Below, in pieces: positions 2,394 to 58,231 of a DNA stretch of 64,000 bases (the stretch's first letter is position 1; every line of letters starts with the position of its first letter). The translations under genes and the position numbers were made by a program. The DNA lies in assembly GCF_000685865.1 (NCBI RefSeq), contig NZ_JMKS01000003.1:62001-126000 (forward strand), in the 5' to 3' direction. Under the pieces are notes generated by a model. It was not told the DNA's origin and searched no databases. It saw nothing but the letters and a program-made list of their open reading frames with translations. The DNA comes from Exiguobacterium antarcticum DSM 14480. Lineage in GTDB: Bacteria > Bacillota > Bacilli > Exiguobacteriales > Exiguobacteriaceae.

Positions 2394-2449
2394 GGGATTC
2401 CCTCCGATTGGTTGATTAGTTTTAGTTTTTTCATACGGTAGTCGAAATG

Positions 2450-2914: not shown

Positions 2915-2937
2915 GCAGTGCCGTCTTTCCTTTCGTT

Positions 2938-3096
2938 TTAGAATCGGAGCGGTCGCCAGCCGCTCTTGATCATTTTTTGCGTTTCATGTTGTGTGGCATC
3001 TGGGATGTACAGCACTATGTACTGTTTCTTTTCGTAACGCTCGAACAATTGCGGTTTCGTTCCGCTGTACTTTATTCGCTGATTCGGTCGGGCCAT
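2938..3096 (-). CDS. 52-residue basic phage protein
   Basis: A short reading frame starts at ATG 3096 and stops with TAA at 2938-2940. The product begins M-A-R-P-N-Q-R-I-K-Y-S-G-T-K-P and ends G-W-R-P-L-R-F; it is basic and contains a central 'QYIVLYIP' strand. A GAGGTG ribosome site lies 8 bases before the start. It overlaps the upstream gene's end by 25 bases, as expected in this tightly packed operon. No function can be assigned. Confidence 0.65.
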   Translation of the reverse strand: MARPNQRIKYSGTKPQLFERYEKKQYIVLYIPDATQHETQKMIKSGWRPLRF

Positions 3097-3308
3097 CGCC
3101 GTGACACCTCGTGTTCATCAAGTGAGCGACCTTCGAGCGTCCAATCCTTTCGTTCTCTCGACAGCATGACCGCGATGCTGATTGGTCGAAGTCCGTCCTC
3201 CACCTGGACCAAGCGACCCGCAATCAATGTATGACGACGGATCTGGTTCGAAATGAACAGGATTTCTTCACGGTGATCGTGCTTCTTGCGAAAAACGAGT
3301 GTTTTCAT
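3072..3308 (-). CDS. small phage protein, unknown
   Basis: A 78-residue, highly charged protein (many His, Arg and Glu). Its ATG at 3308 overlaps the preceding gene's TGA as ATGA, implying translational coupling. No membrane segment or zinc motif is present. It is kept as real because of the coupling and the continuous operon packing, though no family is recognised. Confidence 0.55.
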   Translation of the reverse strand: MKTLVFRKKHDHREEILFISNQIRRHTLIAGRLVQVEDGLRPISIAVMLSRERKDWTLEGRSLDEHEVSRRWPDRISE

Positions 3309-3535
3309 CAGTCATCGCTCCCTTCTACTACTGTCCAATCTGCTTGATATTCGGACGGTGATAATCGTTGAAAGGCTGCACGATGGAACGCTTCATCCGT
3401 ATGGTTCCGAACCATCTTCGTCATATATCCATTCGCATCAAGTTGCATCCGAATGATGCCGTGTTGAAGCTCAAACTCTGCAAAACGAATCGTGCCCGTT
3501 GCGATTCCTTTCATAGCATCGAAAATATTCATCAT
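3308..3535 (-). CDS. small phage protein, unknown
   Basis: A 75-residue protein with two adjacent Met start codons behind a GGAGACGGG ribosome site. It overlaps both neighbours by ATGA. The core 'FAEFELQHGIIRMQLDANGYMTKM' looks like two beta strands, followed by a helix and an acidic end. Nothing more specific can be assigned. Confidence 0.6.
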   Translation of the reverse strand: MMNIFDAMKGIATGTIRFAEFELQHGIIRMQLDANGYMTKMVRNHTDEAFHRAAFQRLSPSEYQADWTVVEGSDD

Positions 3536-3762
3536 CCCGTCTCCTTCCTTGGCTTCCGCTCTGGAAGCTCCATCAATGCGATATACCGCACATATTCATT
3601 TCGAGAAACGAACCTGACACGACCGGAGAATTCTTCTTTCGAGAACTGTTTGCTGCCTTTTACGAACTGATCACGCCGGACGAGCCGGGCGCCACGGTTC
3701 ACATGGTCCGCGATACGCCGGTCAAGTCCTGTCTCACTGATATCCGTCAATCTGAACTGCAT
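3532..3762 (-). CDS. small basic phage protein, unknown
   Basis: A 76-residue protein rich in Arg, with 'RIADHVNRGARLVRRDQF' suggesting a nucleic-acid-binding surface. The start at 3762 has an AGGGGG ribosome site. It follows the replication initiator gene by 12 bases and overlaps the next gene by 4. No domain is recognised. Confidence 0.6.
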   Translation of the reverse strand: MQFRLTDISETGLDRRIADHVNRGARLVRRDQFVKGSKQFSKEEFSGRVRFVSRNEYVRYIALMELPERKPRKETG

Positions 3763-3774
3763 CCATCATTCCCC

Positions 3775-4677
3775 CTAGTCCTGATGGAGCGAGCGAAGTA
3801 GTTCCTGGACTTCCGAGTCATCCGGAACATTACTTTCAAGCTCCTGCTTTTTCCGTTGTTCGAAGGCTTGCTGTTCCTCTTTCTCTTTTGCGACCCATGC
3901 CGGTTCTTCCATGTCCGGAACATTTCGACGATTACGACCAAATCCTTTCGTAGATCGAGACGTTGACCGCTTGGATTCATGCAGCTGGATGGCTTCGAGC
4001 GTGAACAGTTTCTTATCCGCGAGCTTCCGGATAATTGCTTTTGCGTACTTCCAGTTCCGCACATCATTGAGTACCGATTGTTCGAGCGCGTACTGAATCA
4101 ATTCATAGGAACTTTCAGCGAGCGTATGCTGAATATCATCAATGACGTAACCGGATGCCATGCCAATTTCTTTTTGAAAGAAGCTGACTAATTTTGAAAG
4201 ATCATCGTTATTATTGATTACGCGCTCTGATGATGATGAATTACTTAAAGGGTTATTCTTAATAGGGTTATTCTTAGGGTCAACGTCAGTGACTACCCCT
4301 AGTCTCTGTGGTTGACTACCCTGGTCAATGTCAGTGACCACCCCTAGTCGTTGTGAATTACCAGTAACGAAATTTTCTATGGTGTAAATATTGCTTGTTT
4401 GATTCCCATCATCGTTCTTTCTAGCGTTTTTTCGGACGAGTCCTTTACAAACAAGAGATTTCACGCAATTGATTGCTTTGTACCTTGAACATTGCGCTTC
4501 TTTTGCAATCGTCGCGTACGAAGGGAAGGCTCCAGTCCCGTTGACCGCATGACTTTTGAGAACGAAGTAGACCATCTTTTCGTAGATGTCCCCGAAGGTC
4601 GCATTATCGCGTACGACCTCGTGGGGAATCATGGTGAAGGGAATCGTGTTACTGTCGTGAATTCGATCTTGGCTCAT
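3775..4677 (-). CDS. phage replication initiation protein, winged-helix N-terminus plus DnaD-like C-terminus
   Basis: A 300-residue protein. Residues about 10-105 form a winged helix of the type found in phage and plasmid initiators ('IPHEVV', 'YATIAKEAQCSRYKAINCVKSLVCKGLV'). Residues about 160-235 form a DnaD-like helical domain ending near 'NWKYAKAI'. The two are joined by a low-complexity linker with a tandem 15-residue repeat beginning RLGVVTD, followed by Asn/Ser runs. Such proteins bind the phage origin and recruit the host helicase loader. No separate dnaC/dnaI-like loader lies beside it. The linker DNA holds iteron-like repeats (4278-4355), so the origin may be inside this gene. The ribosome site is GAGGTG, 8 bases before ATG. 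Confidence 0.85.
   Translation of the reverse strand: MSQDRIHDSNTIPFTMIPHEVVRDNATFGDIYEKMVYFVLKSHAVNGTGAFPSYATIAKEAQCSRYKAINCVKSLVCKGLVRKNARKNDDGNQTSNIYTIENFVTGNSQRLGVVTDIDQGSQPQRLGVVTDVDPKNNPIKNNPLSNSSSSERVINNNDDLSKLVSFFQKEIGMASGYVIDDIQHTLAESSYELIQYALEQSVLNDVRNWKYAKAIIRKLADKKLFTLEAIQLHESKRSTSRSTKGFGRNRRNVPDMEEPAWVAKEKEEQQAFEQRKKQELESNVPDDSEVQELLRSLHQD
4278..4355. repeat. two iteron-like 33-bp direct repeats, candidate phage origin
   Basis: Copies at 4278-4310 and 4323-4355 match at 29 of 33 positions with a 45-bp period. Each contains the core GTCAGTGAC and CCCCTAGTC. They lie inside the linker of the replication initiator gene, a common place for phage origins. The 45-bp period also equals 15 codons, so the repeat could instead reflect protein-level duplication. 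Confidence 0.55.
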
Positions 4678-4688
4678 ATTCCGTCACC

Positions 4689-5600
4689 TCACACGTCGAA
4701 TGGGAACTGCTGCCCATCGAATGGATCCTCTTCTTTGTTCAGTGTTTCGGGTTCTGTCTGTTCTGCCACCGTGTCGACATATTGATTTTCGATGAATCCC
4801 GTCTGCGCAACAGTCGATTCTTTGACCACACTGATTGAATTGTCGGCACTGATGAGCTCACCGATTTGGCGAACCTGTCCGTCCTCTCGCTCAATCGAAA
4901 GTGGTGCGGTCTTCAGTAATTTAATGATGACCGTCTTTTTCGCCATCTCGACGAAGTGATCTTTCCATGGTCCGAAGACGTTCCCACTTTTATCTTTCGA
5001 TTTCGTAAAACGATCACGGTGCTTCTCAACCTGGTTCCGTGTCATAACGACGAAGTCTGATCCGCCGTCCTTAAGGTGATACACAGCATAAAAGTGTGTG
5101 ACCTTACTCGGATCATCTTCACCACAAGGGACGTGGTGCAAGTCCTTGTTCAGACCGTAAGAATAGTGGAAATTGTCTCCTTCATAGACCTCATGTGTGT
5201 ACAGTTGCTTGAGCTCTCCGGAGCGGCGTGCAAGATCGATCGTCCCCTTAAACCCTAGTTGAAATTGGGCTTCCATTTGCTTCGTCTTACCATTCCAAAA
5301 TGGGAGGATGTAGGCATGACCGATTAGATTCGGCTCGACGCCGAGTGCAGCGCAATTGACAATGGCGCCGACGAGCGTCGCTGGATCACAATCGAACAAC
5401 TTTGGGTTACGTGTCGCTGCATTCAAACCGAGGCGCGCCAAACGCTCTGGCGTGACATGCTTTGGTACGAGAGATTGAATCGCCTTGAAGTTTGAGGCAA
5501 GCATGTTTTGAAGTCCTTGCTCAGGTGTCGTACCTTGTTGTGCCGGAGCTTGAGAAGCCCGGTTTGCGAGTTGATTTTTGATATCTGCTGTTTTGGCCAT
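4689..5600 (-). CDS. recT: RecT-family single-strand annealing protein
   Basis: A 303-residue RecT recombinase. It anneals complementary single strands during phage recombination, working with the exonuclease encoded immediately upstream. Characteristic segments are 'GAIVNCAALGVEPN' (about 78-91), 'AYILPFWN' and 'AQFQLGFKGTIDLARRSG', then 'FGPWKDHFVEMAKKTVIIKLLK' near residues 205-226. The length is typical and the C-terminus is acidic, which may contact host factors. A GGAGGG ribosome site precedes ATG 5600. Confidence 0.95.
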   Translation of the reverse strand: MAKTADIKNQLANRASQAPAQQGTTPEQGLQNMLASNFKAIQSLVPKHVTPERLARLGLNAATRNPKLFDCDPATLVGAIVNCAALGVEPNLIGHAYILPFWNGKTKQMEAQFQLGFKGTIDLARRSGELKQLYTHEVYEGDNFHYSYGLNKDLHHVPCGEDDPSKVTHFYAVYHLKDGGSDFVVMTRNQVEKHRDRFTKSKDKSGNVFGPWKDHFVEMAKKTVIIKLLKTAPLSIEREDGQVRQIGELISADNSISVVKESTVAQTGFIENQYVDTVAEQTEPETLNKEEDPFDGQQFPFDV

Positions 5601-5615
5601 GATGAATGCCCTCCC

Positions 5616-6560
5616 TTATTTCGTTTCTTTTATCGTAAAGCGGCGTGTCGGTTTTCCGATTTTGACGTACTTTTCATATAGATCCGGTTGGTCTTTCGCG
5701 AACGACTTTGTATCGAATGTTTCGCGAGGCTTCGTATTCTTCCACTGAACAAGATGGTTACGTGCGATACCAACTTCTGCCTCACCAATCATTCCTTTGA
5801 GACGATTTTCCGCATCGAGCACTGATTTTTTCACCTCTGCTTCACGCTCTTTGGCAAAGCGATATGCATCGATCAGATCATCCGCATCATCTGGCAATTC
5901 AATTTCTGAATCACTTTCTGCCATTGGGAATAACTGCTTCAGCAGGTCACTCGATGCGCCAGTACCGTCGTATGCAGGTGGAATACGCTTGAGGATGTGA
6001 TTATTCCAAAAATCTGAGGCGATATCCGTGATGTACTGAATCAGTTCATCGTCACGCTCGATCCGTTTATAGATGAAGTGATTGCCACCAATCAGTACAG
6101 CAATCCATGCAGCCTCGTATCCAGTGATATTCAAATAATGCATGACCTGAATCAGATAGGCTGCCGGAATCTCGTCGTCTTTCCACTCTTCTTTGAGATA
6201 AGCGGATGCCGTCTTACATTCGAGTAGTTCCTTCTTGCCAATCAGGACGCGATCAAGATTTCCGAGCAAGTATGGATGCTCTGGGTGATGAATCATGTGA
6301 TTCTTACGACGAACTTTGTGTCGGCTGCGTGCTTCGAATTCCTTCGCTACAACATCCTCCATCACGGTACCCCAGTAGGCAGCCTCACCTGCTGTATCCT
6401 CGATGTCTACCTCTCCTGTTTTTTCGAGATAAACGCTCATTGCTGACTTGTATTTGTTCAGACCGGCGATGGCTGCGATATCACTTCCGCCGAGCCCTTT
6501 TTTACGCCACTCGAGCCATTCATTCTTATCCATGTCCTTCGTGTTGACTAAAATGTTCAT
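5616..6560 (-). CDS. YqaJ-family viral recombinase (lambda-exonuclease fold)
   Basis: A 314-residue 5'-3' exonuclease of the YqaJ/lambda Exo group, the partner of the adjacent RecT. Visible signatures are 'WRKKGLGGSDIAAIAGLNKY' near residues 18-37, 'LLGNLDRVLI' with the metal-binding Asp, and 'KKELLECKTASAY' with the E-x-K pair. The ribosome site AGGAGG precedes ATG 6560. Together with RecT it forms a complete phage homologous-recombination module. Confidence 0.93.
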   Translation of the reverse strand: MNILVNTKDMDKNEWLEWRKKGLGGSDIAAIAGLNKYKSAMSVYLEKTGEVDIEDTAGEAAYWGTVMEDVVAKEFEARSRHKVRRKNHMIHHPEHPYLLGNLDRVLIGKKELLECKTASAYLKEEWKDDEIPAAYLIQVMHYLNITGYEAAWIAVLIGGNHFIYKRIERDDELIQYITDIASDFWNNHILKRIPPAYDGTGASSDLLKQLFPMAESDSEIELPDDADDLIDAYRFAKEREAEVKKSVLDAENRLKGMIGEAEVGIARNHLVQWKNTKPRETFDTKSFAKDQPDLYEKYVKIGKPTRRFTIKETK

Positions 6561-6572
6561 CTTCGTTCCTCC

Positions 6573-6782
6573 TTATAGAACGGCATTTCGATAGTCGGTG
6601 AGCTGTTCCTTAAGTTCTGGATCCAGCTCGAACGTATCGAAGTCCGATTCAGTGGTGATTTCATTTGACTCATAATCGTCAGCGCAATCGATACAGAGAT
6701 AGGCGTCCGCTTCGGGGATATATGGAAGCTCCGTGACGTCTTCTGTTTCGTATTTGCATCCATTACAGCGGTAGATAGTCAT
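6573..6782 (-). CDS. small zinc-ribbon-like phage protein
   Basis: A 69-residue protein with two Cys pairs (C-N-G-C near residues 6-9 and C-I-D-C near 31-34), spaced as in a zinc ribbon. An acidic helical C-terminus follows. The ATG overlaps the stop of the upstream gene (ATGA). It probably binds zinc and perhaps nucleic acid or a host protein; the specific role is unknown. Confidence 0.65.
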   Translation of the reverse strand: MTIYRCNGCKYETEDVTELPYIPEADAYLCIDCADDYESNEITTESDFDTFELDPELKEQLTDYRNAVL

Positions 6783-7027
6783 TTCGACTCCTCCTTCACC
6801 TTGGCTAAAGCAATTTTTAACGTCTCGATTTGGCTTTGAAGCACCTGGACGAATGAATAAGCCGGTGCGTATGTGCCGAGTACGAATCCTAAACGTGACA
6901 GCGTCTTTTCTAACTCTGCGATGGTGTGATCCACAGATTCGGTAGCGCGATCGACTTCGATGGCTGCTTTCTGCTTTTTAATGAACAGCAGGCGCCCGAT
7001 TCGTTGCGCTCGATTAATCGTGTTCAT
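6779..7027 (-). CDS. coiled-coil phage protein, unknown
   Basis: An 82-residue, mostly helical protein with heptad-like repeats. The start chosen is ATG 7027 because AGGAGGAAAACC lies directly before it; an upstream in-frame start at 7057 would add 10 residues but has no ribosome site. Similar small helical proteins accompany phage recombination genes, but no function is known. Confidence 0.65.
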   Translation of the reverse strand: MNTINRAQRIGRLLFIKKQKAAIEVDRATESVDHTIAELEKTLSRLGFVLGTYAPAYSFVQVLQSQIETLKIALAKVKEESK

Positions 7028-7079
7028 GGTTTTCCTCCTGTCCGGAGCGTGATACACTTAAGTTCCTAGGCAAAAGTGG

Positions 7080-7232
7080 TCATCGCTCTCTTGAGTGGTG
7101 GCTTTTTTTCTTGTCCGCCTGTTCTTGCTCCAACTTCCGCTCTTCACGTCCTTCGATGATGAAGACGGGAACGACAGCAATCAGTGACACGACCCAGACG
7201 GTCGCCATCATGACGAATGCTTCCGCTGACAT
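7080..7232 (-). CDS. 50-residue single-TM phage protein
   Basis: A short frame from ATG 7232 to TGA 7080-7082. It encodes a hydrophobic N-terminal helix (about residues 5-26) followed by a highly charged Glu/Lys/Arg tail. The ribosome site AAGGAGGTGAGTAC is among the strongest in the operon. The arrangement N-out, charged tail inside is plausible for a phage membrane effector. The function is unknown. Confidence 0.65.
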   Translation of the reverse strand: MSAEAFVMMATVWVVSLIAVVPVFIIEGREERKLEQEQADKKKSHHSRER

Positions 7233-7252
7233 GTACTCACCTCCTTTCCAGG

Positions 7253-7336
7253 TCAACCTCGTTCATCCCACCACCAGCCGCCGAATGCTATGGCGAAAGC
7301 AATCAATGCGAAACCGTAGATGACATATGCGTTCAT
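7253..7336 (-). CDS. 27-residue hydrophobic peptide
   Basis: A tiny frame from ATG 7336 to TGA 7253-7255, with a hydrophobic helix ending in G-G-W-W-W-D-E-R-G. The start overlaps the stop of the upstream gene as ATGA, so translation is probably coupled. It could be a membrane microprotein. Short length makes chance a real alternative; the coupling and the aromatic membrane-edge belt favour coding. Confidence 0.45.
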   Translation of the reverse strand: MNAYVIYGFALIAFAIAFGGWWWDERG

Positions 7337-7632
7337 TTCAGCTTGATTGGAGGATCCATTCGGACTAGATGCATATCGAACGTGTCTTCCATAAGATGCA
7401 GAACGTGTTTTTTGTTGATGGCGTCAATCACGATAATCGGATCATTTTTGACCATCTGTTTGAAGTGGACCAAGGCATCCGGCTCCGATTCTTCCACCAT
7501 CTCTCGCGTCACATCAGCGAGGATGCTTGACACGACGTCCTCAACGTTGATCAAGGGTTGAAGCGTTGGGTTTTCGTGAAACCGATCTACCAGAGCATTG
7601 GCTAAGACATCAAGATTTTTATAAAGTGGCAT
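7333..7632 (-). CDS. phage protein, unknown
   Basis: A 99-residue, mostly acidic helical protein with no clear motif. The start at 7632 has GAAGGAGTG as ribosome site and overlaps the excisionase-like gene by 14 bases. It is retained as real from the packing and the ribosome site. Confidence 0.6.
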   Translation of the reverse strand: MPLYKNLDVLANALVDRFHENPTLQPLINVEDVVSSILADVTREMVEESEPDALVHFKQMVKNDPIIVIDAINKKHVLHLMEDTFDMHLVRMDPPIKLK

Positions 7633-7912
7633 GTTGTTTCACTCCTTCGATTGTTTGATTCCAGTCGTTGCTTTCAACTCGTTTGTCGAGCCATTCATAT
7701 AAATGCTCGCGGCGGACAATGATTTTCCCATCGACACGTGTAATCGGTAATCCGTTCTCGCGGATCTGTTTGTCAATCGTGCTACGGCTGCACCGTAGCT
7801 CCTCACATACTTCCGGTACCGTGAGATACTCACGCTTCCGTGCAATCGTTGCGAGTGATTCTGCAATTCCGTCTGCAATCATGCGTTTGAATTCCTGCTC
7901 ATTGAACAACAT
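7619..7912 (-). CDS. excisionase-like / MerR-type helix-turn-helix protein
   Basis: A 97-residue protein with a DNA-binding domain at about residues 29-78. The pattern 'YLTVPEVCEELRCSRSTIDK' followed by a wing 'GKIIVRREHLYEWLDKR' is typical of HTH_17/excisionase proteins. In a prophage with an integrase, such a protein could direct excision or act as an early regulator. Ribosome site GAGGAGG precedes ATG 7912. Confidence 0.75.
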   Translation of the reverse strand: MLFNEQEFKRMIADGIAESLATIARKREYLTVPEVCEELRCSRSTIDKQIRENGLPITRVDGKIIVRREHLYEWLDKRVESNDWNQTIEGVKQHATL

Positions 7913-7930
7913 GGTTTACCTCCTCACGAT

Positions 7931-8602
7931 TTAGACGAGCGCTGGACGCCAATGTGTGACGTATGAGAGTGCTTCGTCGAATTGGTTCTGTCGGATATCA
8001 CGATAAGATGCGACTGCGAAAGCACGTTTGATGTCGCTCCCGAAACGTCCGTACAGTTTCGCTTTCGAATCATATAAATCAGATGGCCGTTCACTTAGTT
8101 CTTTCCATAGATCCTCAGCACGACGTTTCTTTGCTCGTTCGATTGCTAGCTGTTGCCCATAATCGAGGGTCATCCGTAAATCAATCTTTTCCGTGAGTGT
8201 CGTGATGGCTGCTTCCGTCTCACCTTGTTTCTCAAGCAGTTGGGCTGTTGCGGTGAACAATTCAGCGAACGGGATGCCCTTGGGTACTTCATAGGATCCG
8301 GTGTTGCGGATTGATGGGAGTACTTCTTCCATGACCCAATTTTCGAATGCTTGTGCTGCCGGCAACTTCGAGTTGGTGACAAGACGGTAGACATCCGGTT
8401 CGCGGATAACGATCATGTCCTGTGTACCACCATTTGTAAGGACGGGATGTTTCGTCCCACCCTTGCAGTGACGACTGACTGCCTTATGCGGTTCTTTGTA
8501 TCCAAGCGCTTTCGCAACATCTGAAGCAACGAATAACGGTGCAGTGTTGTTGCCGATCATTCGAATTTCGCTGCCTTTAAAAACTTTTGTAAGTTGATTC
8601 AT
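7931..8602 (-). CDS. phage antirepressor, BRO-N plus ORF6C domains
   Basis: A 223-residue protein. The N-terminal half (about 8-105) is a BRO-N domain ('APLFVASDVAKALGYKEPHKA', 'NWVMEEVLPSIRNTGSY'). The C-terminal half (about 135-220) matches ORF6C ('KAKLYGRFGSDIKRAFAVASY'). Such proteins counteract lysogeny repressors during induction. It is the second gene of the leftward operon, directly after the Cro-like gene. The ribosome site is AGGAGGAAGAATT before ATG 8602. Confidence 0.9.
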   Translation of the reverse strand: MNQLTKVFKGSEIRMIGNNTAPLFVASDVAKALGYKEPHKAVSRHCKGGTKHPVLTNGGTQDMIVIREPDVYRLVTNSKLPAAQAFENWVMEEVLPSIRNTGSYEVPKGIPFAELFTATAQLLEKQGETEAAITTLTEKIDLRMTLDYGQQLAIERAKKRRAEDLWKELSERPSDLYDSKAKLYGRFGSDIKRAFAVASYRDIRQNQFDEALSYVTHWRPALV

Positions 8603-8650
8603 AATTCTTCCTCCTAATTTCGGGTATAAAAAAGAATAAAGAAAAAAATA

Positions 8651-8887
8651 TTATTCGTTAGTTGCTTTTACGCAACCTTTATTCAAAAAAATTTGTTGCT
8701 CAACATCCTTTTCCATTCCCAAAAGACTAATTACTCTAAAAATTTCTGTAGCTGTAAATTCTGTTTTACCTGACTCTTTTCTATAGTAAGTCGAGGTATT
8801 GACTTCTAATTCTTTCGCTACTTCTCTACGAGTAAGTTTGCTTTTCTTTCTTCTAAACTCAATAAGAGCAAGAAAGGCATCGTTCAT
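8651..8887 (-). CDS. Cro-like helix-turn-helix regulator
   Basis: A 78-residue XRE-type protein whose helix-turn-helix covers about residues 14-40 ('LTRREVAKELEVNTSTYYRKESGK'). The start is ATG 8887 with GGAGGGATAGT just before; an in-frame extension up to 8989 would run through the promoter/operator region and is rejected. It is the first gene of the leftward operon and divergent from the CI-like repressor, the classic genetic-switch layout. An operator-like GTTGC-N6-GCAAC sits within its last codons (8661-8676). Confidence 0.85.
   Translation of the reverse strand: MNDAFLALIEFRRKKSKLTRREVAKELEVNTSTYYRKESGKTEFTATEIFRVISLLGMEKDVEQQIFLNKGCVKATNE
8661..8676. promoter_or_regulatory. operator-like palindrome inside the cro-like gene
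   Basis: GTTGCTTTTACGCAAC has the same GTTGC-N6-GCAAC form as the switch-region operators 250-330 bp away. It encodes the C-terminal residues of the Cro-like protein, so it might support repression loops. Confidence 0.5.
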
Positions 8888-8903
8888 ACTATCCCTCCTT
8901 TCT

Positions 8904-9003
8904 GTTGCGTATTTGCTACCCTTAAACCAAATATACACCCTTAGTTGCTTAAACGCAACGGTTATTTTTAAAAACTTTCTTCTTTTCATTGCATATATGC
9001 AAC
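8904..9003. promoter_or_regulatory. lysogeny switch operators (three GTTGC-N6-GCAAC-type sites)
   Basis: Three sites lie between the divergent repressor genes: GTTGCGTATTTGCTAC (8904-8919), GTTGCTTAAACGCAAC (8944-8959) and ATTGCATATATGCAAC (8988-9003), spaced 40-44 bp apart. The middle one overlaps the -35 box of the leftward promoter. They are the likely binding sites of the CI- and Cro-like proteins. Confidence 0.7.
8930..8958 (-). promoter_or_regulatory. leftward early promoter (sigma-A type)
   Basis: On the minus strand, TTGCGT (8953-8958) and TATATT (8930-8935) are separated by 17 bp. The promoter drives the Cro-like gene and the early operon. Its -35 lies within the operator at 8944-8959, so repressor binding would occlude it. 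Confidence 0.7.
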
Positions 9004-9075
9004 GAGTGTTGCCATGTCGGTTATACTACTTGTAAAGTCGTATTATTTAATTTACTAAATGGTGGTGATGTATAA

Positions 9076-9474
9076 ATGAAAAATTCTTCGACAACATTTA
9101 CAGATAGATTTGAAGAAGAGATGAAGAGAAGCGGCCTATCCAAAGCTACGATTGCCGATAAAATTGGAGTTAGTAAATCTACGATCACAAGATATGCAGA
9201 TGGGTCAATGGGACCTAATGCATCCTCGATAGCTAAACTTTCCTTGCTATTTGGTTGTAGCGCAGACTATTTACTAGGTTTGACGTCAAAGCGTAATTCT
9301 TCCGCTGATCCTATCATGAAAGAATCAGATGTTCATTACGAAGCGGATGAAAGTATCAGAAAACTTCTAAAGCTGACCGATGAAGAGCTGGAAAGTCTTT
9401 CTCGAAAACAGATCGAAGAAATTTATGCGTTTATCGAATTTCAAGTTGAAAGAAGCAAAAAGGCGGCTGAATGA
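9076..9474 (+). CDS. CI-like XRE family repressor
   Basis: A 132-residue protein with an N-terminal helix-turn-helix (about 17-66: 'LSKATIADKIGVSKSTITRY', then 'SIAKLSLLFGCSADYLLGLT'). A charged helical C-terminus probably dimerises. It lacks the LexA-type peptidase domain, so induction is more likely through the antirepressor at 7931 than by self-cleavage. The ribosome site GGTGGTGA precedes ATG 9076. It is divergent from the Cro-like gene across the operator cluster. Confidence 0.85.
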   Translation: MKNSSTTFTDRFEEEMKRSGLSKATIADKIGVSKSTITRYADGSMGPNASSIAKLSLLFGCSADYLLGLTSKRNSSADPIMKESDVHYEADESIRKLLKLTDEELESLSRKQIEEIYAFIEFQVERSKKAAE

Positions 9475-9490
9475 TCTCAGTCGCCTTTTT
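9457..9490. terminator. bidirectional terminator shared by convergent gene ends
   Basis: AAAAAGGCGGCTGA pairs with TCAGTCGCCTTTTT with one mismatch. The hairpin spans the 3' ends of both the CI-like gene and the convergent small gene, giving T-runs in both directions. Confidence 0.75.
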
Positions 9491-9650
9491 GATACTCAAT
9501 TTTTATTGTCTCCCATTTATTTCGATCGAATACTTCATCCAGCGTGAAGGTCATTCGAATAGTTAGTCCATCTTTCCTTACAGTCACTTGTCGCTCTTTT
9601 AATAACATTGATTCTTTGGATTTTAAACTGAGCGTTGACTTCACATACAA
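9477..9650 (-). CDS. 57-residue protein, unknown
   Basis: A small basic protein predicted as beta strands plus a short helix. The start chosen is a TTG at 9650 because GGAGGGG lies 6 bases upstream; an in-frame TTG at 9665 has no ribosome site. It is convergent with the CI-like gene and has no recognised family. It may be a small lysogeny-region protein or a chance frame. Confidence 0.4.
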   Translation of the reverse strand: MYVKSTLSLKSKESMLLKERQVTVRKDGLTIRMTFTLDEVFDRNKWETIKIEYQKGD

Positions 9651-9984
9651 AATGAACCCCTCCAAATGCGAACTAACGTTCTATATGATGTTTTTTTAGT
9701 ATGCCTTATGCAAACCTTATTTTCAAGTATCATCCTGTTCTTTACAATCCCAACGATTCGACAATTTATGACATTCTCTATTTATTTACAAAACTGTTTT
9801 TCAAAATAGTGAAACGTGACTGATACAGATATTTGTCGAACACTTTTTTATTTACTTAGATTAGAATTGTCGAAACCTGTCGGACGGTTGTTGCCAAACC
9901 TTCCCTTTTTCTTAAAAGGAAAGACTTTTACACATCTTAAAATTGGTAAAATGAAGGGAAATGAACATTAAGGGAGGAAAAATT
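9651..9984. other. gene-free AT-rich stretch before the Excalibur-domain gene
   Basis: No plausible coding frame is seen. The stretch contains three copies of the 8-mer TTGTCGAA or its complement (9757-9764, 9833-9840, 9867-9874), with a near match CTGTCGGA at 9878. A ribosome site (GGGAGGAAAAATT) leads into ATG 9985, with a possible -10 TAAAAT near 9947. Confidence 0.4.
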
Positions 9985-10884
9985 ATGTCTACGAGTCGTC
10001 CGTTCCCACTAAATGAACTTGATCGACTTCATCCAAATGGATTCGTAACGTTAGGTAAAGCAAAATCTACTACATACAGTGAACCCTTCTACGTTGTTGC
10101 CACTGAAAAAGAAGGGCTTTATTTTTACGTTCGTCATCAACAATCCGTTGAACTTTTAGTTTACTATCATTGGAATCAGATTCCCGATGAGTTATTTAAA
10201 AGTGATCGTAAAAATGATCGTACCTACCGGCATAAAAAAAACGTTGTCCTGACTATCTTTGTTGGCGATGAAGAAGGAAAAGAAGTCGCAAAATTGATTG
10301 AACAACGAAAGAAGATCTCATTACTTGCTCGTCCGTGGTATAGAAAGATTCTTGGCTATCGAAGTGGCACCGGCTGGAAAATGCTTATTGCCTCCCTCGT
10401 CTACTTCTCATTATTAACTGGACTGGTCAATGGTGATGATGAAAAGGATAAAGCTGAGCCCGTAAAAACGGAACAAATCAATACATTAAAGGCTGAAGAT
10501 CAGTCCGATGATACTAAAGATGACGACACAGACGATGACGACAAGGCTAAAAAAGAAGCTGCTGAAAAAGCAAAAGCCGAAAAAGAACGTGAACGCAAAG
10601 CGGAATTAGCTGCACAGAAGAAAGCAGAGGAAGAAGAGGCTGCCAAAAAAGCAGAAGAGAAAAAAGCCGCTGAACTTGCTGCACAAAAAGAGGCGGAGAA
10701 GAAAGCGGAAGAAGAACGTATTGCACAAGAGGAAGAAGCCGCTGCTGCCGAAGCTGTCGAGACAGATTTTGCGAACTGTACAGATCTCAGAACCGTTTAT
10801 CCCGATGGTGTTCCGAGTACTCACCCCGCTTATCAAGATAAGATGGATCGGGACAACGATGCTTTTGCGTGCGAACAGAACTAA
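9985..10884 (+). CDS. membrane-anchored protein with C-terminal Excalibur calcium-binding domain
   Basis: A 299-residue protein. Residues 1-120 are a cytoplasmic-looking basic domain of unknown type. A membrane helix spans about 131-149. Residues 151-255 are an Ala/Glu/Lys-rich coiled coil, and the last ~38 residues form an Excalibur domain (Cys265, 'DLRTVYP', 'HPAYQDKMDRDNDAFACE') with EF-hand-like acidic residues and a Cys pair. Excalibur domains are usually extracytoplasmic. The start at 9985 is chosen for its GGGAGGAAAAATT site; ATG 9961 has none. The role in the element is unknown; it could act at the cell surface, for example in excluding other phages, but that is speculation. Confidence 0.75.
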   Translation: MSTSRPFPLNELDRLHPNGFVTLGKAKSTTYSEPFYVVATEKEGLYFYVRHQQSVELLVYYHWNQIPDELFKSDRKNDRTYRHKKNVVLTIFVGDEEGKEVAKLIEQRKKISLLARPWYRKILGYRSGTGWKMLIASLVYFSLLTGLVNGDDEKDKAEPVKTEQINTLKAEDQSDDTKDDDTDDDDKAKKEAAEKAKAEKERERKAELAAQKKAEEEEAAKKAEEKKAAELAAQKEAEKKAEEERIAQEEEAAAAEAVETDFANCTDLRTVYPDGVPSTHPAYQDKMDRDNDAFACEQN

Positions 10885-11068
10885 ATTGTTGCGGACAACA
10901 TAAACTTTATGCTGACCGGTACACGGTTGAGATTCCGACGAAATAACTAAACTTATCAATATAGTTTTTATTTACGTAGATAAAAACTTGAATTTTGTTG
11001 CAAAAGAACTTTCAATTAACTCATATTTAAAATAGATTTGGTTTTACTTTATTACGTTAAGACTGGAG

Positions 11069-11776
11069 ATGATTTTAATTAACGATAATATTTCGTTGGT
11101 TCCTATGCCTTTATCGGGTGTAGAAGAGATTATTAGGTTAATCATCTCTCTTCAAGATGATTTTAATGAACTCTATTTTACTAACCCACAGGCTAGCACT
11201 TACAACTTGAATAAAAAGCGGATTGATCAGATTTTTTGTCCCATCGAATCACGTGTGATTCATGACGATCTAAACGAATATTGCTACAAATACAGACAGT
11301 CATTAACACACTTTCACCTGTCTCACGTTTTATCAAATCCTTCTTTTCATGGGAATTTTGAAGGGTTTAGCATAACTCAACGATTAAAAAGTCGCGTTAA
11401 GTATTCTGTGTCTTTAGCCGATAAGATTAGAAAGTATGCTCTAAACGATCATCATAAGGGTAAAATCGCTATTAATAAATGTCTTAACGATCTTTTAGGA
11501 TTCAGAATGTTTCTTTCAAATAGAGCAAGTTCCCATGATCAGTTGATCGAATTATGCTCTCAAAATCCACGTACTAAATGTGTAGATTCATCAAAAGGAG
11601 ATTATAAAGCCACACATATTTATATCAAAGGTACTCAAAATTTTCACTTCCCTTGGGAATTACAAATTTGGGATCCAATACATGCTTCAAGTAATGATCT
11701 TTCTCATGCGCAGTATAAACAAGGTTATCTACTTGATTTAGCAACCAATCAAAGGTTTGACAGTGACTGGAATTAA
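11069..11776 (+). CDS. RelA/SpoT-fold small synthetase, probable toxSAS toxin
   Basis: A 235-residue protein with a RelA/SpoT nucleotidyltransferase domain from about residue 100 to 205 and no HD hydrolase domain. Visible landmarks are the basic motif R105-L-K-S-R109-V-K, the metal-ligand motif 'NDLLGFRM' (Asp141, Arg146), the G-loop 'GDYKATHIYIK' (Tyr179, His183) and 'WELQIWD' (Glu197). Single-domain synthetases of this size, paired with a Panacea protein as here, include toxSAS toxins that make toxic alarmones or pyrophosphorylate tRNA 3' ends. The ~100-residue N-terminal helical region is unassigned. The annotated ATG sits only one base after GGAG, so the true start is uncertain. A plain alarmone synthetase is the alternative. 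Confidence 0.72.
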   Translation: MILINDNISLVPMPLSGVEEIIRLIISLQDDFNELYFTNPQASTYNLNKKRIDQIFCPIESRVIHDDLNEYCYKYRQSLTHFHLSHVLSNPSFHGNFEGFSITQRLKSRVKYSVSLADKIRKYALNDHHKGKIAINKCLNDLLGFRMFLSNRASSHDQLIELCSQNPRTKCVDSSKGDYKATHIYIKGTQNFHFPWELQIWDPIHASSNDLSHAQYKQGYLLDLATNQRFDSDWN

Positions 11777-11777
11777 G

Positions 11778-11792
11778 GTATACCAAGTATAC
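11778..11792. promoter_or_regulatory. GTATAC-CAA-GTATAC inverted repeat between toxin and antitoxin genes
   Basis: Two GTATAC hexamers three bases apart lie directly after the toxin stop codon, in the 63-bp gap before the Panacea gene. They could be an operator for autoregulation or separate control of the antitoxin. The assignment rests on symmetry alone. Confidence 0.35.
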
Positions 11793-11839
11793 ATACACCT
11801 ATAAACATGATATCTTTATCAAGTCAGAGGAGGGATTTT

Positions 11840-12553
11840 ATGTTTCAATTTATCATTTTGTTATACACTTCTTTCAAGGATGGGAAGCGTTATGCTTTTA
11901 GGCCGACATCAACAAACTACTCAGAACAAGTAAGTTCATTACATTCCAAAATCGAGTCAGAATTTGACGATATTGGATTAAGCACTCATTTCGGTCAAAC
12001 TATGACCAGTAAGTGGGAAGAAGTAGCACAAATGGATTCTTATTTTAAAGATGTTGAGTTAATTGAATGCGAGCAAGAATTTTTAGAAGTAATCCGTGCT
12101 TCAGAAGAAATTACACCCCTTGATATTGCGCAGCTCATCGCGATGAAAGTCCGTTGTACACCATTAAAACTTCAAAAATTACTTTATATTGCATACTGCA
12201 AATTCCTAAAAGAAACCGATTCTCCTTTATTCGGTGAAGAATTTCAAGCGTGGGACTACGGTCCAGTGATTCCTTCAGTTTATCATCAATTTAAATCACT
12301 CAGATCAGAACAAATAATTATCGATGTACCTACTGCAAACGAAAAAAGGTATTTATCCACTTCCATCGGACGCAAAATATTAAAAGTAGTTGATGAAACT
12401 ATCGAACAGTACGGTGATTATTCTGCTAACAATCTAGTAACTTTTACACATGAGCCAGGACGTGCATGGGTTTCTGTATTTATACCACTAAAGTCAAACG
12501 TTATGAGTGTAGAGTGTATAAAAGAATCGTTAGATTTTAATTTAAATGTATAA
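11840..12553 (+). CDS. Panacea (PanA/SocA, DUF4065) domain protein, probable antitoxin
   Basis: A 237-residue protein. The C-terminal ~140 residues match the Panacea/SocA domain ('KLQKLLYIAYCKFL', 'LFGEEFQAWDYGPVIPSVYHQFKSL', 'LVTFTHEPGRAW'). The N-terminal ~90 residues are a separate, unrecognised domain. Panacea proteins serve as antitoxins to many unrelated toxins, including toxSAS enzymes, by direct binding. The start is set at ATG 11840 because GAGGAGGG lies just upstream; ATG 11807 lacks a ribosome site. It follows the RelA-like gene by 63 bases and is closed by a terminator. Confidence 0.8.
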   Translation: MFQFIILLYTSFKDGKRYAFRPTSTNYSEQVSSLHSKIESEFDDIGLSTHFGQTMTSKWEEVAQMDSYFKDVELIECEQEFLEVIRASEEITPLDIAQLIAMKVRCTPLKLQKLLYIAYCKFLKETDSPLFGEEFQAWDYGPVIPSVYHQFKSLRSEQIIIDVPTANEKRYLSTSIGRKILKVVDETIEQYGDYSANNLVTFTHEPGRAWVSVFIPLKSNVMSVECIKESLDFNLNV

Positions 12554-12562
12554 GTAGGTTCT

Positions 12563-12609
12563 ATCTTTGTTCTTTTGCTATCATTAGTTAAGAGAACAAA
12601 GATTTTTTT
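12563..12609 (+). terminator. intrinsic terminator after the Panacea gene
   Basis: ATCTTTGTTCT pairs with AGAACAAAGAT (12593-12603), followed by a run of T. It closes the toxin-antitoxin unit and separates it from the integrase gene. Confidence 0.75.
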
Positions 12610-12649
12610 CTGGTTAAATTTGCTTTTTTCAAAGGAGGCTTCTTAAACA

Positions 12650-13771
12650 ATGGCGAACATAAAAAAGAACCCCACTACCGGTAAATGGGAAGCCAGGATC
12701 AGTCTTGGATTCGATGAACGAGGCAAAAGGATCCAGAAGTATAAACGAGCGGATACGAAACGGGAACTGGAGTATTGGATGGCCAACTTACTCAAGGAAC
12801 GTGAGGACGGGTCCATCAAACGGCAAAAGTCTCAGATGACAGTAACAGATCTGATTGCGGTCTATTACGAACGTCGTGCTCCGCAACTTGCAAAAGCGAC
12901 ACTCTACAACCGCCGAAAGGTGTCATCCCTGTTAGAAATCGAACTGGGGAAGATGAAACTTGAGAACGTCCGGACGCATCATCTATCCGATGTCTTGACG
13001 AAATATGCCGAGCTACGGGAATGGAATGCGAATAGCTATAATACGATGATGCAACAAGTCCGCGCCTTCTTCCGTTATGCAGTCGAGATGGAGTATCTTC
13101 GGGAAGATCCAAGTAACGGACTCGCTCAGGACCGCCGGCGCGCCGTCAAGAACCACACGGTCTGGTCGAAACAAGAATGTGAACTGTTCATCCAGACGCA
13201 TGAGAAAGAACTGCGTGCCCTCCCCATCATCTTGATCCTGCATACCGGGATGCGCATCGGTGAAGTCATCACCTTGCGTTGGTCTGACATCGATTTTGAG
13301 CAACAGACGATCCTCGTCAAGCGCTCCATTGCGGACCATAACCGCTCAGCCTTCGAAAATGAGAAAGCCCCTAAAAACGGCCGTTCTCGCCTCATCGTGT
13401 TGAACGAGACCGCCATCGATTACCTCAAGAGCATGAAACGGCTACAATCCGCTCATCAGCTAAGCCATGGGTACCGGAATGACAGTGACTACGTCTGCTT
13501 GAATACGATGGGAAGACCGTTAGGAACCAGCATCACGCATCGGGCATTCAATTGGCTGTCGGAGCTCGCCGGCGTACCACGGATTCGGATTCACGATCTA
13601 CGTCATACGCACGCCACCCTATTGCTCGAACAAGGCGTGCATCCGAAAGTCGTCCAGGAAAGATTAGGTCATGCAAGTTATGCGATAACCATGGATTTAT
13701 ATAGCCATGTCAGTGTAAAGTTGCATAAAGAGGCTACTGATGTCCTCGTTTTCAATAAAAGTGTGCAATAA
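12650..13771 (+). CDS. int: tyrosine recombinase, phage integrase family
   Basis: A 373-residue integrase. It has an N-terminal arm-type DNA-binding domain (residues 1-50, 'GKWEARISLGFDERGKR'), a SAM-like core-binding domain (about 60-160) and a catalytic domain. The catalytic set is visible as 'HTGMRIGEV' (Arg), 'HDLRHTHA' (His-x-x-Arg) and 'LGHASYAITMDLYSHV' (His, Tyr nucleophile). The length is full and the start has an AAGGAGG site. It should integrate and excise the element; the core att site is probably just downstream, between here and nth, but I could not define it. Confidence 0.95.
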   Translation: MANIKKNPTTGKWEARISLGFDERGKRIQKYKRADTKRELEYWMANLLKEREDGSIKRQKSQMTVTDLIAVYYERRAPQLAKATLYNRRKVSSLLEIELGKMKLENVRTHHLSDVLTKYAELREWNANSYNTMMQQVRAFFRYAVEMEYLREDPSNGLAQDRRRAVKNHTVWSKQECELFIQTHEKELRALPIILILHTGMRIGEVITLRWSDIDFEQQTILVKRSIADHNRSAFENEKAPKNGRSRLIVLNETAIDYLKSMKRLQSAHQLSHGYRNDSDYVCLNTMGRPLGTSITHRAFNWLSELAGVPRIRIHDLRHTHATLLLEQGVHPKVVQERLGHASYAITMDLYSHVSVKLHKEATDVLVFNKSVQ

Positions 13772-13794
13772 ATGTGCAATTGGAGGAGATTCTG

Positions 13795-14709
13795 TTGAAC
13801 AAAAGAGAACTAAAAAACGTGAAAAACGTTGATGTCAAAGGATTTCCTAAGACCACAAATCCAACAGCAAAAAAGTACGTCATGTTCGTCGACGAAACCG
13901 GTACACCCAAAGGAAATACACAATTTAACTTGACCGGAGTCTTAATGGAATACAAATATGCCATCGACTCAGATGAAACCGGCGAACCAAGTCCGTTACG
14001 AAAACGCTTGATGCAATTCAAATCAGCGGTTTTCGAAGATCCACATATTCCACTCCACCTGAAAGAAATCTTAAAAGCTGAGCACCCGTATGGGAAAGAA
14101 GACGGGATCACAATCGATATGTTACGTCACTTTTGGGTCGCTTTACCAGATTTTCTCGTTGACATCGACTGTACGATCGTCAGTGTCGAAGTCGATAAAC
14201 AAAAACTGCAGGAATTCTATTCTACACCAAAAGATCCATATGTCGTGGCGTTTGCCCACTTGATGAAATCGTTTTATGCGTTTCTTGAGGAAACAGAGGC
14301 GACGAGTGCACGGGTTGTCCTGGAAAGTCGGGATGATTATCAAAACTTGTTGATTCAAAAAGCCTTTTTCGATATCTTCAATTCAGGAACGGTCCACCTC
14401 GATGTCGAGAAAAGCCGTCAAAAAATCAAAGGGTTCATTTTTGCTGAAAAAGACAGTGATCTCTACCAATCCGGTCTTGAGATTGCCGATCTTGTCTGCC
14501 TCCCCCTCTCCCGTGTCCGTCGTGGGGTGATCGAGGTGAAGCCGCGGTTTGTCCATTACGGGGACGAAAACCGAATTTTTAAGGCCATTAAAAACAAAAT
14601 TTACATTCGCCGGGATAGCCCCGATCAAGATTTTCGAAACTGGGGCTTCAAAAAGGTTCCGATTACTAAAAAACGTCGTGAATGGTCTGACACGCCATGG
14701 AACGGTTAA
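13795..14709 (+). CDS. DUF3800 family protein (RNase H-like fold)
   Basis: A 304-residue DUF3800 protein with the N-terminal 'FVDETGTP' motif, 'VLESRDD' in the middle and 'SGLEIADLVCLPLSR' near the end, which give the acidic residues expected of this RNase H-like group. Such genes are common cargo of phages and genomic islands, and several lie in defence contexts; the biochemical role is not settled. The start is a TTG at 13795, chosen because GGAGGAG is 6 bases upstream; the frame opens at a GTG (13774) overlapping the integrase end. It is probably co-transcribed with the integrase gene. Confidence 0.85.
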   Translation: MNKRELKNVKNVDVKGFPKTTNPTAKKYVMFVDETGTPKGNTQFNLTGVLMEYKYAIDSDETGEPSPLRKRLMQFKSAVFEDPHIPLHLKEILKAEHPYGKEDGITIDMLRHFWVALPDFLVDIDCTIVSVEVDKQKLQEFYSTPKDPYVVAFAHLMKSFYAFLEETEATSARVVLESRDDYQNLLIQKAFFDIFNSGTVHLDVEKSRQKIKGFIFAEKDSDLYQSGLEIADLVCLPLSRVRRGVIEVKPRFVHYGDENRIFKAIKNKIYIRRDSPDQDFRNWGFKKVPITKKRREWSDTPWNG

Positions 14710-56391: not shown

Positions 56392-56982
56392 TCAAGGTGT
56401 AAATGTTGTTGTTATAGTCGTGATTGCGTCTTCTGACATAATCACCTTCCCGTATTCTGCCATGATAAGGGGACTTTTCGGACTTGGTGTTCCATATTCT
56501 GATAAAATCGTCGTCATGGTTTGCTCGACCTTTTGTTTCATTTGTTCCTGGAAGTACAGATAATAACGTCCTTCAAAGAAATAGAGTGCTCCACCCGTTT
56601 CTGTTTGCTTGATATGACGAACCAGACCATGGCTAGCCTGGATGACGTCTTCGAACTTGTCAAGTTGATACAAGACATGATGGACGATATCAACCGTCAT
56701 CCGAATCTCCACTTGATCAAATTCTTCAAATGTTTCTTCCGGCATGACGCCATCGCGCCGGACATCCACCAACATTCCATCGTTTGGGAAAAACGTCACA
56801 AAAAAGTCAAGCGTCCCGACAGCATGAAAGCCGTAATTAGACTCTGCTTCTTCTAATAAGTTTCGTAGTAAGGCCTGCCCTTTTCCGACAGCTAACGTTT
56901 CTGGTCGCACGTCATGCACCGCTAATTCTTGTTTTGACACGAAGACCCGCAAATGCCCTTGTTTAAATTGTTCAAACCTCAT
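56392..56982 (-). CDS. ypbH: MecA-like adaptor protein (YpbH type)
   Basis: A 196-residue protein of the MecA family, adaptors that deliver substrates to ClpC. It has an N-terminal substrate-binding part, an acidic middle and a C-terminal domain ('GALYFFEGRYYLYFQE'). Its location near gudB and recQ points to the YpbH paralogue rather than MecA itself. Confidence 0.85.
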   Translation of the reverse strand: MRFEQFKQGHLRVFVSKQELAVHDVRPETLAVGKGQALLRNLLEEAESNYGFHAVGTLDFFVTFFPNDGMLVDVRRDGVMPEETFEEFDQVEIRMTVDIVHHVLYQLDKFEDVIQASHGLVRHIKQTETGGALYFFEGRYYLYFQEQMKQKVEQTMTTILSEYGTPSPKSPLIMAEYGKVIMSEDAITTITTTFTP

Positions 56983-57041: not shown

Positions 57042-57926
57042 CTATACACCAGTTGTCGGGGTGAGTCGACTTAACCAACTTTTCCAGGCACTATCATCCG
57101 ATCCAAGTAACAGATCCCCGTATTTTTCTGGATGTTGGTCGACAGCGTAGCCACCTAAACCAATCTCCGTTTGCGGGACGTTGATTTGAATTTCAGCGAT
57201 TGCTTCATCCAAATCGTCTAAATGGTCCGAAACCGTACAGGATAGGACAACTGCCCGAGGTGTCAATTGTTTGGTCACTGTCACGAGATCCGGCACCGGA
57301 ATTCCTGCGCCAAGAAAAATGACATCAAATCCGGACTGCCGTAAAAAGAGTGTAAAAAAGAGCAAGCCGAGTTCGTGTTCCTCCTCCGGTGCGCATACAC
57401 ATAAGATTCGCGGCAAAAAAGGATTGATCGGCATTTGAAGGGATAAGGTAGAGAGACGAGCCCGTAAGAAAGCTGTCGCAAAATGTTCATGAGCAATCGT
57501 AATCGTCCCTTGTTCCCACTTCGTCCCGATTTCATGTAACAAAGGACCCACGATGTCTTGAATCACTTTATCAAAGCTAAACATGGAAAAGGCTTTGTTC
57601 ATGATATCATGGGCATGCCGTTCTTCGAAATTCGTCAGCGCCTCGAACAGTTGATCACGTAGTTCGATTCCGTAATCCATTGGGACTTCCGTTCGGTTTA
57701 CTGGCATTTCATATAATTGAATGGCTTTTGAAACGGACAGCCCCTCTTTTTGTTTATCGACGATCCAGCGCAACTTGGCGACATCATTATCACTATAAAT
57801 ACGATGACCCGATTCACTCCGATCTGGATCTAGAACTTGATACCGCCGTTCCCAAGCACGAATGGTCGTCGGATTGAGTCCCACCAATGCAGCAACTGCT
57901 TTGATATTGTATTTCCCACGATCCAT
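57042..57926 (-). CDS. MerR-family regulator with cobalamin-binding domain (CarH/LitR-like)
   Basis: A 294-residue protein. It has a MerR DNA-binding domain (residues 1-75, 'NPTTIRAWERRYQVLDPDR'), a four-helix bundle (85-160) and a B12-binding Rossmann domain (170-290). In the bundle W137-x9-E147-H148 matches the motif that caps adenosylcobalamin in CarH. In the Rossmann domain E182-x-H184-x-x-G187, S229-x-T231 and G258-G259 match the canonical cobalamin motif, His184 being the lower cobalt ligand. CarH-type proteins repress carotenoid genes in the dark and release DNA in light. The residue after the Trp is Glu138, not the His used by T. thermophilus CarH after illumination. Confidence 0.85.
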   Translation of the reverse strand: MDRGKYNIKAVAALVGLNPTTIRAWERRYQVLDPDRSESGHRIYSDNDVAKLRWIVDKQKEGLSVSKAIQLYEMPVNRTEVPMDYGIELRDQLFEALTNFEERHAHDIMNKAFSMFSFDKVIQDIVGPLLHEIGTKWEQGTITIAHEHFATAFLRARLSTLSLQMPINPFLPRILCVCAPEEEHELGLLFFTLFLRQSGFDVIFLGAGIPVPDLVTVTKQLTPRAVVLSCTVSDHLDDLDEAIAEIQINVPQTEIGLGGYAVDQHPEKYGDLLLGSDDSAWKSWLSRLTPTTGV

Positions 57927-57997
57927 GCACCGTGCCTCCTTTCTTCTTCCTTTTAGTATACCCGTAAAGGAAAAAAAACTCCGTTCACAATGTGCAC

Positions 57998-58192
57998 TTA
58001 CATCATGAAACCGATGGAGACAAAGGCGATGATGATCGTAATCATCAGAACCGTCAGTGTGATTGCAAGTCGATTTTTAGCAAATGGTTGTTTGAAGCGT
58101 TCGTTACGAACATGCTCGATTCTTGATGAACGGGGAGGGAAGGTCGTCCGTTGTTCTTCTTGCCGATTTTTTCGTTGATCGTGTTTACTCAA
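57998..58192 (-). CDS. small basic single-TM protein, unknown
   Basis: A 64-residue protein with a highly charged N-terminal half (Arg/Lys/Glu) and one C-terminal membrane helix (about 43-64). I choose a TTG start at 58192, 6 bases after AAAGGTG; ATG 58198 is too close to that site. It lies between recQ and the MerR-type gene. No family recognised. Confidence 0.65.
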   Translation of the reverse strand: MSKHDQRKNRQEEQRTTFPPRSSRIEHVRNERFKQPFAKNRLAITLTVLMITIIIAFVSIGFMM

Positions 58193-58231
58193 TTTCATCA
58201 CCTTTTCTAAAAAATAAGGAATACTGTTAGT

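Follow-up and report, generated by a model that had tools for sequence, protein, structure and literature searches.

A CarH-like, predicted B12-binding MerR regulator in the recQ-mecA-gudB region of Exiguobacterium antarcticum, with glutamate at the position of the second histidine ligand

Introduction

CarH homologues are defined by the motif Wx9EH together with ExHx2Gx41SxV/Tx22-27GG (PMC8156234). CarH/LitR of Thermus thermophilus (3whp, 5c8d-f) is about 33% identical to the Exiguobacterium antarcticum protein considered here and shares with it the domain order, Wx9EH and the lower histidine; the Thermus counterpart of Trp137 stacks on the adenosyl group (PMC10442372). Bacillus megaterium CarH/LitR, likewise a Bacilli protein and compared here by description, forms adenosylcobalamin (AdoCbl) tetramers in the dark and dimers in the light, and its operator consists of four 11-bp direct repeats (PMC8156234); the title of a paper cited in that source ties it to carotenoid production.

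CtMerR of Chloracidobacterium thermophilum (8jbs/8jbt) resembles the E. antarcticum protein in its pocket residues and has no second-ligand His (PMC11796333); its DNA-binding domain is reported to be only 25% identical to Thermus CarH. In CarA of Myxococcus xanthus (PMC8156234) and class II LitR, as in our protein, the DNA-binding domain is of MerR type and the C-terminal part resembles CarH. CarA has no Wx9EH and functions independently of B12 (PMC8156234), whereas Wx9EH is intact in E. antarcticum.

The E. antarcticum gene is not new to annotation. Eab7_1666 of this species, whose number is two away from that of recQ, already appears in PMC6016940 as a B12-binding protein of MerR type; CarH is mentioned there, and an interaction with phytoene synthase is predicted. 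Judging by this description and these neighbours, Eab7_1666 is presumably the orthologue of the gene analysed here.

Results

The cobalamin pocket and the predicted fold

The window is a stretch of 64,000 nucleotides from E. antarcticum DSM 14480, and coordinates refer to it unless another locus is named. The carH-like ORF occupies exactly 57042..57926 on the minus strand, begins with ATG, has an AGGAGG a short way upstream, and encodes 294 residues. Its product is predicted to consist of a MerR winged-helix DNA-binding domain (residues 6-71, 57714..57911; Pfam MerR_1, E 5.5e-15), a four-helix B12-binding cap (residues 89-161, 57444..57662; B12-binding_2, PF02607, E 3.5e-16) and a Rossmann B12-binding domain (residues 173-269, 57120..57410; B12-binding, PF02310, E 4.8e-13), all on the minus strand and each above its Pfam cut-off.

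Of the features that mark CarH/LitR membership, an N-terminal MerR domain, a C-terminal B12-binding domain, Wx9EH and the ExHx2G pattern are present. Wx9EH is exact, with Trp137 at 57516..57518 and Glu147-His148 at 57483..57488; ExHx2G-x41-SxT-x26-GG is equally exact, begins at E182 and includes His184 (57375..57377), the predicted lower axial cobalt ligand (all on the minus strand). The original prediction had named a likely AdoCbl-dependent, light-sensing MerR regulator with the CarH cobalamin-binding pattern; a CarH/LitR-type AdoCbl pocket and a MerR domain are borne out by motifs, Pfam, structure matches and phylogeny. The agreement of motifs and predicted domains is far beyond chance.

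Two signatures are matched in part. One deviation that the original prediction did not mention is Glu181, which stands where the published GxxH signature has Gly and gives ExxH184, in contrast to GxxH in Thermus CarH; thus, of the four elements of the SignatureFinder light signature (PMC11796333), GxxW, EH and GxxxP are present and GxxH is missed. Residue 181 is Glu in 18 and Asp in one of the 19 Exiguobacterium rows; at this position the sister genus has Gly in 12 of 14 rows, Glu in one and Asp in one. The NCBIfam CarH equivalog NF052513 matches with 170.1 bits (E 5.7e-50), below its 400-bit cut-off. The pocket residues W/E/H/H are complete in all 19 genus and all 14 sister-genus rows.

Among solved structures, Thermus CarH is the best sequence match (E about 1e-35), and W137, E147, H148 and H184 line up with its W/E/H/H. 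An AlphaFold2 model was built from 39 sequences (mean pLDDT 88.8, pTM 0.68). When this predicted model was searched with Foldseek (109 matches with E <= 0.001), full-length Thermus CarH chains made up the first 12 matches, with 5c8e/5c8d on top (E down to 6e-19), and CtMerR came next. Whole-chain TM scores are just 0.54-0.64 of the query, at rmsd 7-13 A, because the domains are probably placed differently; the B12 domain alone superimposes on 3whp with TM 0.84 of the target at 2.6 A. By these matches, the predicted model has the CarH fold.

Glutamate after the conserved tryptophan

The residue after Trp137 is Glu138 (57513..57515, minus strand), which aligns with Thermus His132, so that the His after Trp typical of the Thermus bis-His state is lacking. 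CtMerR differs in its turn, having Arg here (PMC11796333). The original prediction had noted the Glu and suggested that it might alter the photochemistry. The residue itself is confirmed by alignment, and the photoproduct is likely not bis-His; the suggestion loses its distinctiveness once other Bacilli are considered. Among 75 Bacilli rows, 63 retain W, E, H and the lower His, and the residue after Trp in these is Glu in 62, Gly in one and His in none; these rows were hand-picked with many near relatives rather than drawn at random, and 33 of the 63 belong to Exiguobacterium or its sister genus. The five crt-linked Bacilli CarHs with an intact pocket carry Glu as well, while His follows Trp in both Nitrospirota rows and in Thermus. 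Glu is therefore a feature of Bacilli CarHs rather than a peculiarity of the E. antarcticum protein, and a photoproduct that is likely not bis-His would apply to Bacilli CarHs generally.

Published work shows that light responses occur without this His. Photoresponsive proteins with other residues there are CtMerR (Arg), SasPcob (Gln) and AbDPcob (Tyr), and light turns the tetramer of the Arg-bearing CtMerR B12 domain into monomers (PMC11796333). For the Thermus H132A variant, PMC10442372 reports that tetramers mostly persist under light and places the light-state peak at 352 nm, as for an aquo/hydroxo state, and not at the 359 nm of a bis-His state; an earlier report cited there found that H132A does disassemble.

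Orthologues, gene order and phylogeny

Each of 19 Exiguobacterium genomes has one full-length copy of carH, and by these sequence comparisons the gene is an ordinary Exiguobacterium CarH orthologue; the nearest named relative, from Exiguobacterium sp. KRL4, is 99% identical. At E <= 1e-20, CarH-like matches occur in 96 of 299 class genomes, spanning 31 of 118 genera.

The order recQ, small ORF, carH, mecA-like gene, ddl, gudB, ypdA is common to the Exiguobacterium loci compared, which are the window's own and two others, and four sister-genus loci agree in the order of recQ, carH, the mecA-like gene, ddl, gudB and ypdA. In all, 49 loci were examined. Eight further Bacilli loci, whose regulators are 41-46% identical to the E. 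antarcticum protein, share much of this neighbourhood, with the mecA-like gene adjoining carH in five of them. The Thermus CarH genes compared lie on plasmids; the E. antarcticum gene, by contrast, is on a 1.9-Mb contig, in its recQ-mecA-gudB region. Genes of crtN and crtM type lie beside the regulator in seven of the 49 loci, and at L070 a single weak match to the crt desaturase query adjoins it.

The original prediction had proposed a phylogeny with CarH/LitR proteins. In a 60-row tree the E. antarcticum protein falls in a group of 28 (support 96/96), which joins the proteins of the recQ loci with both Exiguobacterium groups, a single long-branch row and three pocket-less proteins. A second group, of 19 (97/95), holds five crt-linked proteins; the two other crt-linked proteins, which have lost the His of Wx9EH, are placed elsewhere. 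Since long branches were flagged, that of Thermus CarH included, the deep joins of this tree are uncertain. The tree and the gene orders place E. antarcticum CarH in a Bacilli recQ-mecA-gudB lineage, apart from most crt-linked CarHs. The latter are similar in having an intact pocket and Glu after Trp, and differ in their adjoining crtN/crtM genes, their upstream repeats (see below) and their separate clade.

Some relatives have lost pocket residues. The three pocket-less proteins (L087:5998-6852, L088:6001-6864, L089:6001-6876) lack W, EH and the lower His and keep the MerR domain; mecA-like and ddl genes lie about 1 to 5 kb off, and their genomes do have PF02310 proteins. They group with the recQ-locus lineage by a weak join (89/35) and apparently represent a B12-independent offshoot, as far as their sequences tell. 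The two crt-linked proteins outside both groups (L082:6001-6774, L097:5944-6693) are MerR-B12 proteins beside crtN/crtM-type genes with Wx9ET and Wx9ES, respectively; with the His of Wx9EH replaced, they are crt-linked and fall outside the AdoCbl signature.

Supply and other uses of adenosylcobalamin

The E. antarcticum genome has a cobalamin adenosyltransferase (PF01923), and so does every one of the 27 Exiguobacterium-family genomes in the class draw. Across the class it occurs in 96 of 96 genomes with a CarH-like match, which include proteins whose pocket is not intact, versus 145 of 203 without. Counted by genus, the figures are 31 of 31 versus 71 of 87 (hypergeometric p 0.005, relatedness ignored). 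Since PF01923 is common without CarH and the test ignores relatedness, this association gives weak support.

The E. antarcticum genome has no PF02310 match besides CarH and its NrdJ search stayed below the cut-off, so few other AdoCbl users are seen. In the class draw, one PF02310 match per genome was found in eight of 13 Exiguobacterium and in all 14 sister-genus genomes, and two in the other five Exiguobacterium genomes. A search of the E. antarcticum genome for a cobalamin riboswitch found none.

Carotenoid genes and candidate operators

That no carotenoid gene lies beside carH, as the original prediction stated, agrees with our survey: no crt gene was recognised by eye among window ORFs of at least 80 aa between 50 and 64 kb and of at least 150 aa elsewhere. 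A C30-type carotenoid cluster lies on contig C5, carH being on C3. We take this cluster to consist of crtN, a crtN-like gene and crtM, followed by convergent genes, the names being assigned by similarity. PF00494 matches occur in 38 of 38 Exiguobacterium-family genomes, and E. antarcticum has a second, weaker one (91 bits).

At the five crt-linked loci with an intact pocket (L074, L077, L079, L084, L086), three tandem 11-bp TTGTATAA-like repeats stand upstream of carH and before crtN. At most two of 100 shuffles were as good in nine of these ten regions, the exception being the region before crtN of L079 (17 of 100). These arrays agree with the 11-bp repeats described for CarH (PMC8156234) and are consistent with being candidate CarH operators. 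Upstream of carH at the eight recQ loci outside Exiguobacterium, a plain tandem test was low in three only (L062, L065, L159). A TTGTATAA consensus pair, partly circular as evidence, stands there in six (L061, L062, L064-L066, L159), and none was found at L060 and L063.

A positional weight matrix (PWM) of the Bacilli half-site was applied, as two and three copies, to 11 crtN and six carH upstream regions of Exiguobacterium and the sister genus; since its training set consisted of the crt-linked and recQ-locus sites, the scores of those sites are circular. In 34 tests, each with 100 mononucleotide shuffles, p ranged between 0.04 and 1.00. Three tests reached 0.05 or lower, uncorrected and not far from the number expected in 34 tests: E. 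antarcticum crtN with three copies (0.05) and, in the sister genus, crtN of L154 with two (0.04) and carH of L157 with three (0.05). The search for an operator near crt genes that the original prediction had called for thus gave no convincing tandem operator in E. antarcticum, whether upstream of carH, which differs in this from the Thermus promoter (p 0.83 and 0.69 for two and three copies), or upstream of crtN (0.21 and 0.06, the three-copy value with 400 shuffles). Nor did most other carH and crtN regions of the family that were tried yield a convincing TTGTATAA-like copy with this matrix. An exception is the CACAA-type tandem array upstream of carH in part of the sister genus; at L157 none of 60 shuffles scored as high.

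Across 19 genomes of the genus, a TTGTATAA-like pattern gave 182 matches versus 167 for the reversed control, which is no enrichment; genome G000 alone gave 14 versus 3. With operators at carH and crtN unconvincing and the genus pattern unenriched, the CarH-crt link lacks sequence support. By analogy, a CarH-crt link in Exiguobacterium is plausible.

Two further candidates were set aside. The Thermus consensus nAnnTnnACAn, scanned also around the adenosyltransferase and the second PF00494 match, gave one four-repeat site matching 15 of 20 positions, in the crt cluster (L103:9072-9115); it was dropped because it lies where convergent genes meet, not at a promoter, and, by rough estimate, is not rarer than chance in 16 kb. 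An ACAGTT pair with 11-bp spacing upstream of Exiguobacterium crtN is weak and absent in the sister genus, and is not claimed. Between the convergent crt genes lie about 380 bp (L103:8730-9110) with no convincing gene, and Rfam gave no match on the crt cluster.

Outside both regions, three tandem 11-bp repeats, TTGTATCA/TTGTATCA/TTGTATTA, occur at L188:4369-4398 (G000:C3:61369-61398). They sit where an ORF of a prophage-like region ends, some 600 bp to the left of the window. Within the window, positions 1213-14709 hold genes that by eye are prophage-like (RecT-like, YqaJ-like, antirepressor-like, tyrosine integrase), and positions 365-1117 encode a 250-aa protein with a signal-peptide-like start.

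The regions flanking carH

Alignment of upstream sequences from the genus suggests a putative carH -10 hexamer, TATACT, at 57955..57960 (minus strand); it reads TATACT in 18 of 19 genus sequences and TATAAT in one. No -35 element was recognised for the carH promoter, and the promoter scan did not return the putative -10. A GCACA element, conserved in two genera, lies 30 nt before it (57991..57995, minus strand): GCACA-N30-TATA[CA]T is found upstream of carH in 18 of the 19 genus sequences and in all 14 from the sister genus (32 of 33). Just upstream, in the same direction, is a small ORF of 66 aa (57998..58198, minus strand) with a C-terminal stretch that by eye is hydrophobic.

Downstream of carH by 59 bp and in the same direction lies the mecA-like gene (56392..56982, minus strand), assigned to the MecA family by Pfam (E 3.1e-22) and synteny. 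No terminator-like site was found in the gap. Promoter-like matches in this region number 4, about equal to the shuffle mean of 3.3, and one weak match, scoring 9 of 12 with its first hexamer starting at 57069, lies at the end of carH. From this arrangement it is possible that the two genes are co-transcribed. In the stretch before the mecA-like gene the PWM gave p 0.018 with two copies, a match that overlaps the end of carH, and 0.36 with three. The word GAACGGAG is common to the carH and mecA upstream regions.

Discussion

The architecture, motifs and orthology of E. antarcticum CarH, its predicted fold and the chromophore-making gene in the genome are, in our opinion, best read together: carH probably encodes an AdoCbl-binding DNA-binding repressor of the CarH family that is released by light. 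We infer AdoCbl binding, tetramer formation, light response and repression from described relatives. The four-helix cap (W137, E147, H148) and the Rossmann domain would enclose AdoCbl, H184 serving as the lower ligand of cobalt, and the protein so loaded would form tetramers on tandem 11-bp DNA repeats in the dark. UV, blue or green light would break the Co-C bond, free the adenosyl group and take the tetramer apart, which would relieve repression. Since residue 138 is Glu, water or hydroxide rather than a second His would be expected on cobalt in the light state, as in CtMerR. Several results speak against this reading: the equivalog score below its cut-off, the missed GxxH, Glu in place of the His whose loss in Thermus H132A left tetramers mostly intact in light according to one paper (PMC10442372), the want of a convincing tandem operator at Exiguobacterium carH or crtN, and the negative riboswitch search.

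Glu138 is also the starting point for a different reading, in which AdoCbl is photolysed and the protein stays oligomeric on DNA, so that the switch is slow or depends on an extra signal such as oxygen. Thermus H132A, with its mostly persistent tetramers (PMC10442372), would be the precedent; however, the earlier study cited in that paper saw disassembly, the CtMerR B12 domain monomerises with Arg at this position (PMC11796333), and the five crt-linked Bacilli CarHs share the Glu. We regard this outcome as unlikely. Somewhat less probable still is that the protein mainly senses the supply of coenzyme B12, its cleavage by light being a by-product without a physiological role. It is true that CarH is the sole PF02310 match of the genome, that it is unlinked to crt genes and that crtN has no convincing CarH-type operator. 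Nevertheless, the few B12 enzymes seen in the PF02310 and NrdJ searches would leave such a sensor little to regulate, the adenosyl-capping Wx9EH residues are retained in 19 of 19 genus rows, and E. antarcticum does have a carotenoid cluster. A light-independent MerR regulator, kept for some function of the recQ/mecA locus while its pocket decays, is very improbable: the related proteins L087-L089 have indeed lost all four ligands, on a weak tree join, but all 33 Exiguobacterium-family rows keep these ligands, which gives no hint that the pocket is decaying in that family.

The probable light-released repressor thus described is an otherwise ordinary orthologue, and its gene was annotated before as that of a B12-binding MerR protein (PMC6016940). 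Worth retaining are the Glu found throughout Bacilli, the separate recQ-locus lineage, some relatives of which lack the pocket, and the small number of further PF02310 proteins. A more speculative proposal, to which we give a low probability, is that an old Bacilli CarH lineage, unlinked to crt genes and settled at recQ-carH-mecA-gudB, controls a MecA-type ClpC adaptor and is co-transcribed with it. If this were true, light would tune regulated proteolysis through the adaptor, and a photoreceptor would be almost the sole reason for AdoCbl synthesis in Exiguobacterium.

For the family, none of the 63 sampled Bacilli rows with an intact pocket has His after Trp, and sequence rules out a bis-His photoproduct at its usual site in them. 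How the switch works without such ligation is therefore best tested with a Bacilli protein, and Exiguobacterium, where CarH is nearly the sole PF02310 protein, would offer a clean setting for testing B12-based light signalling.
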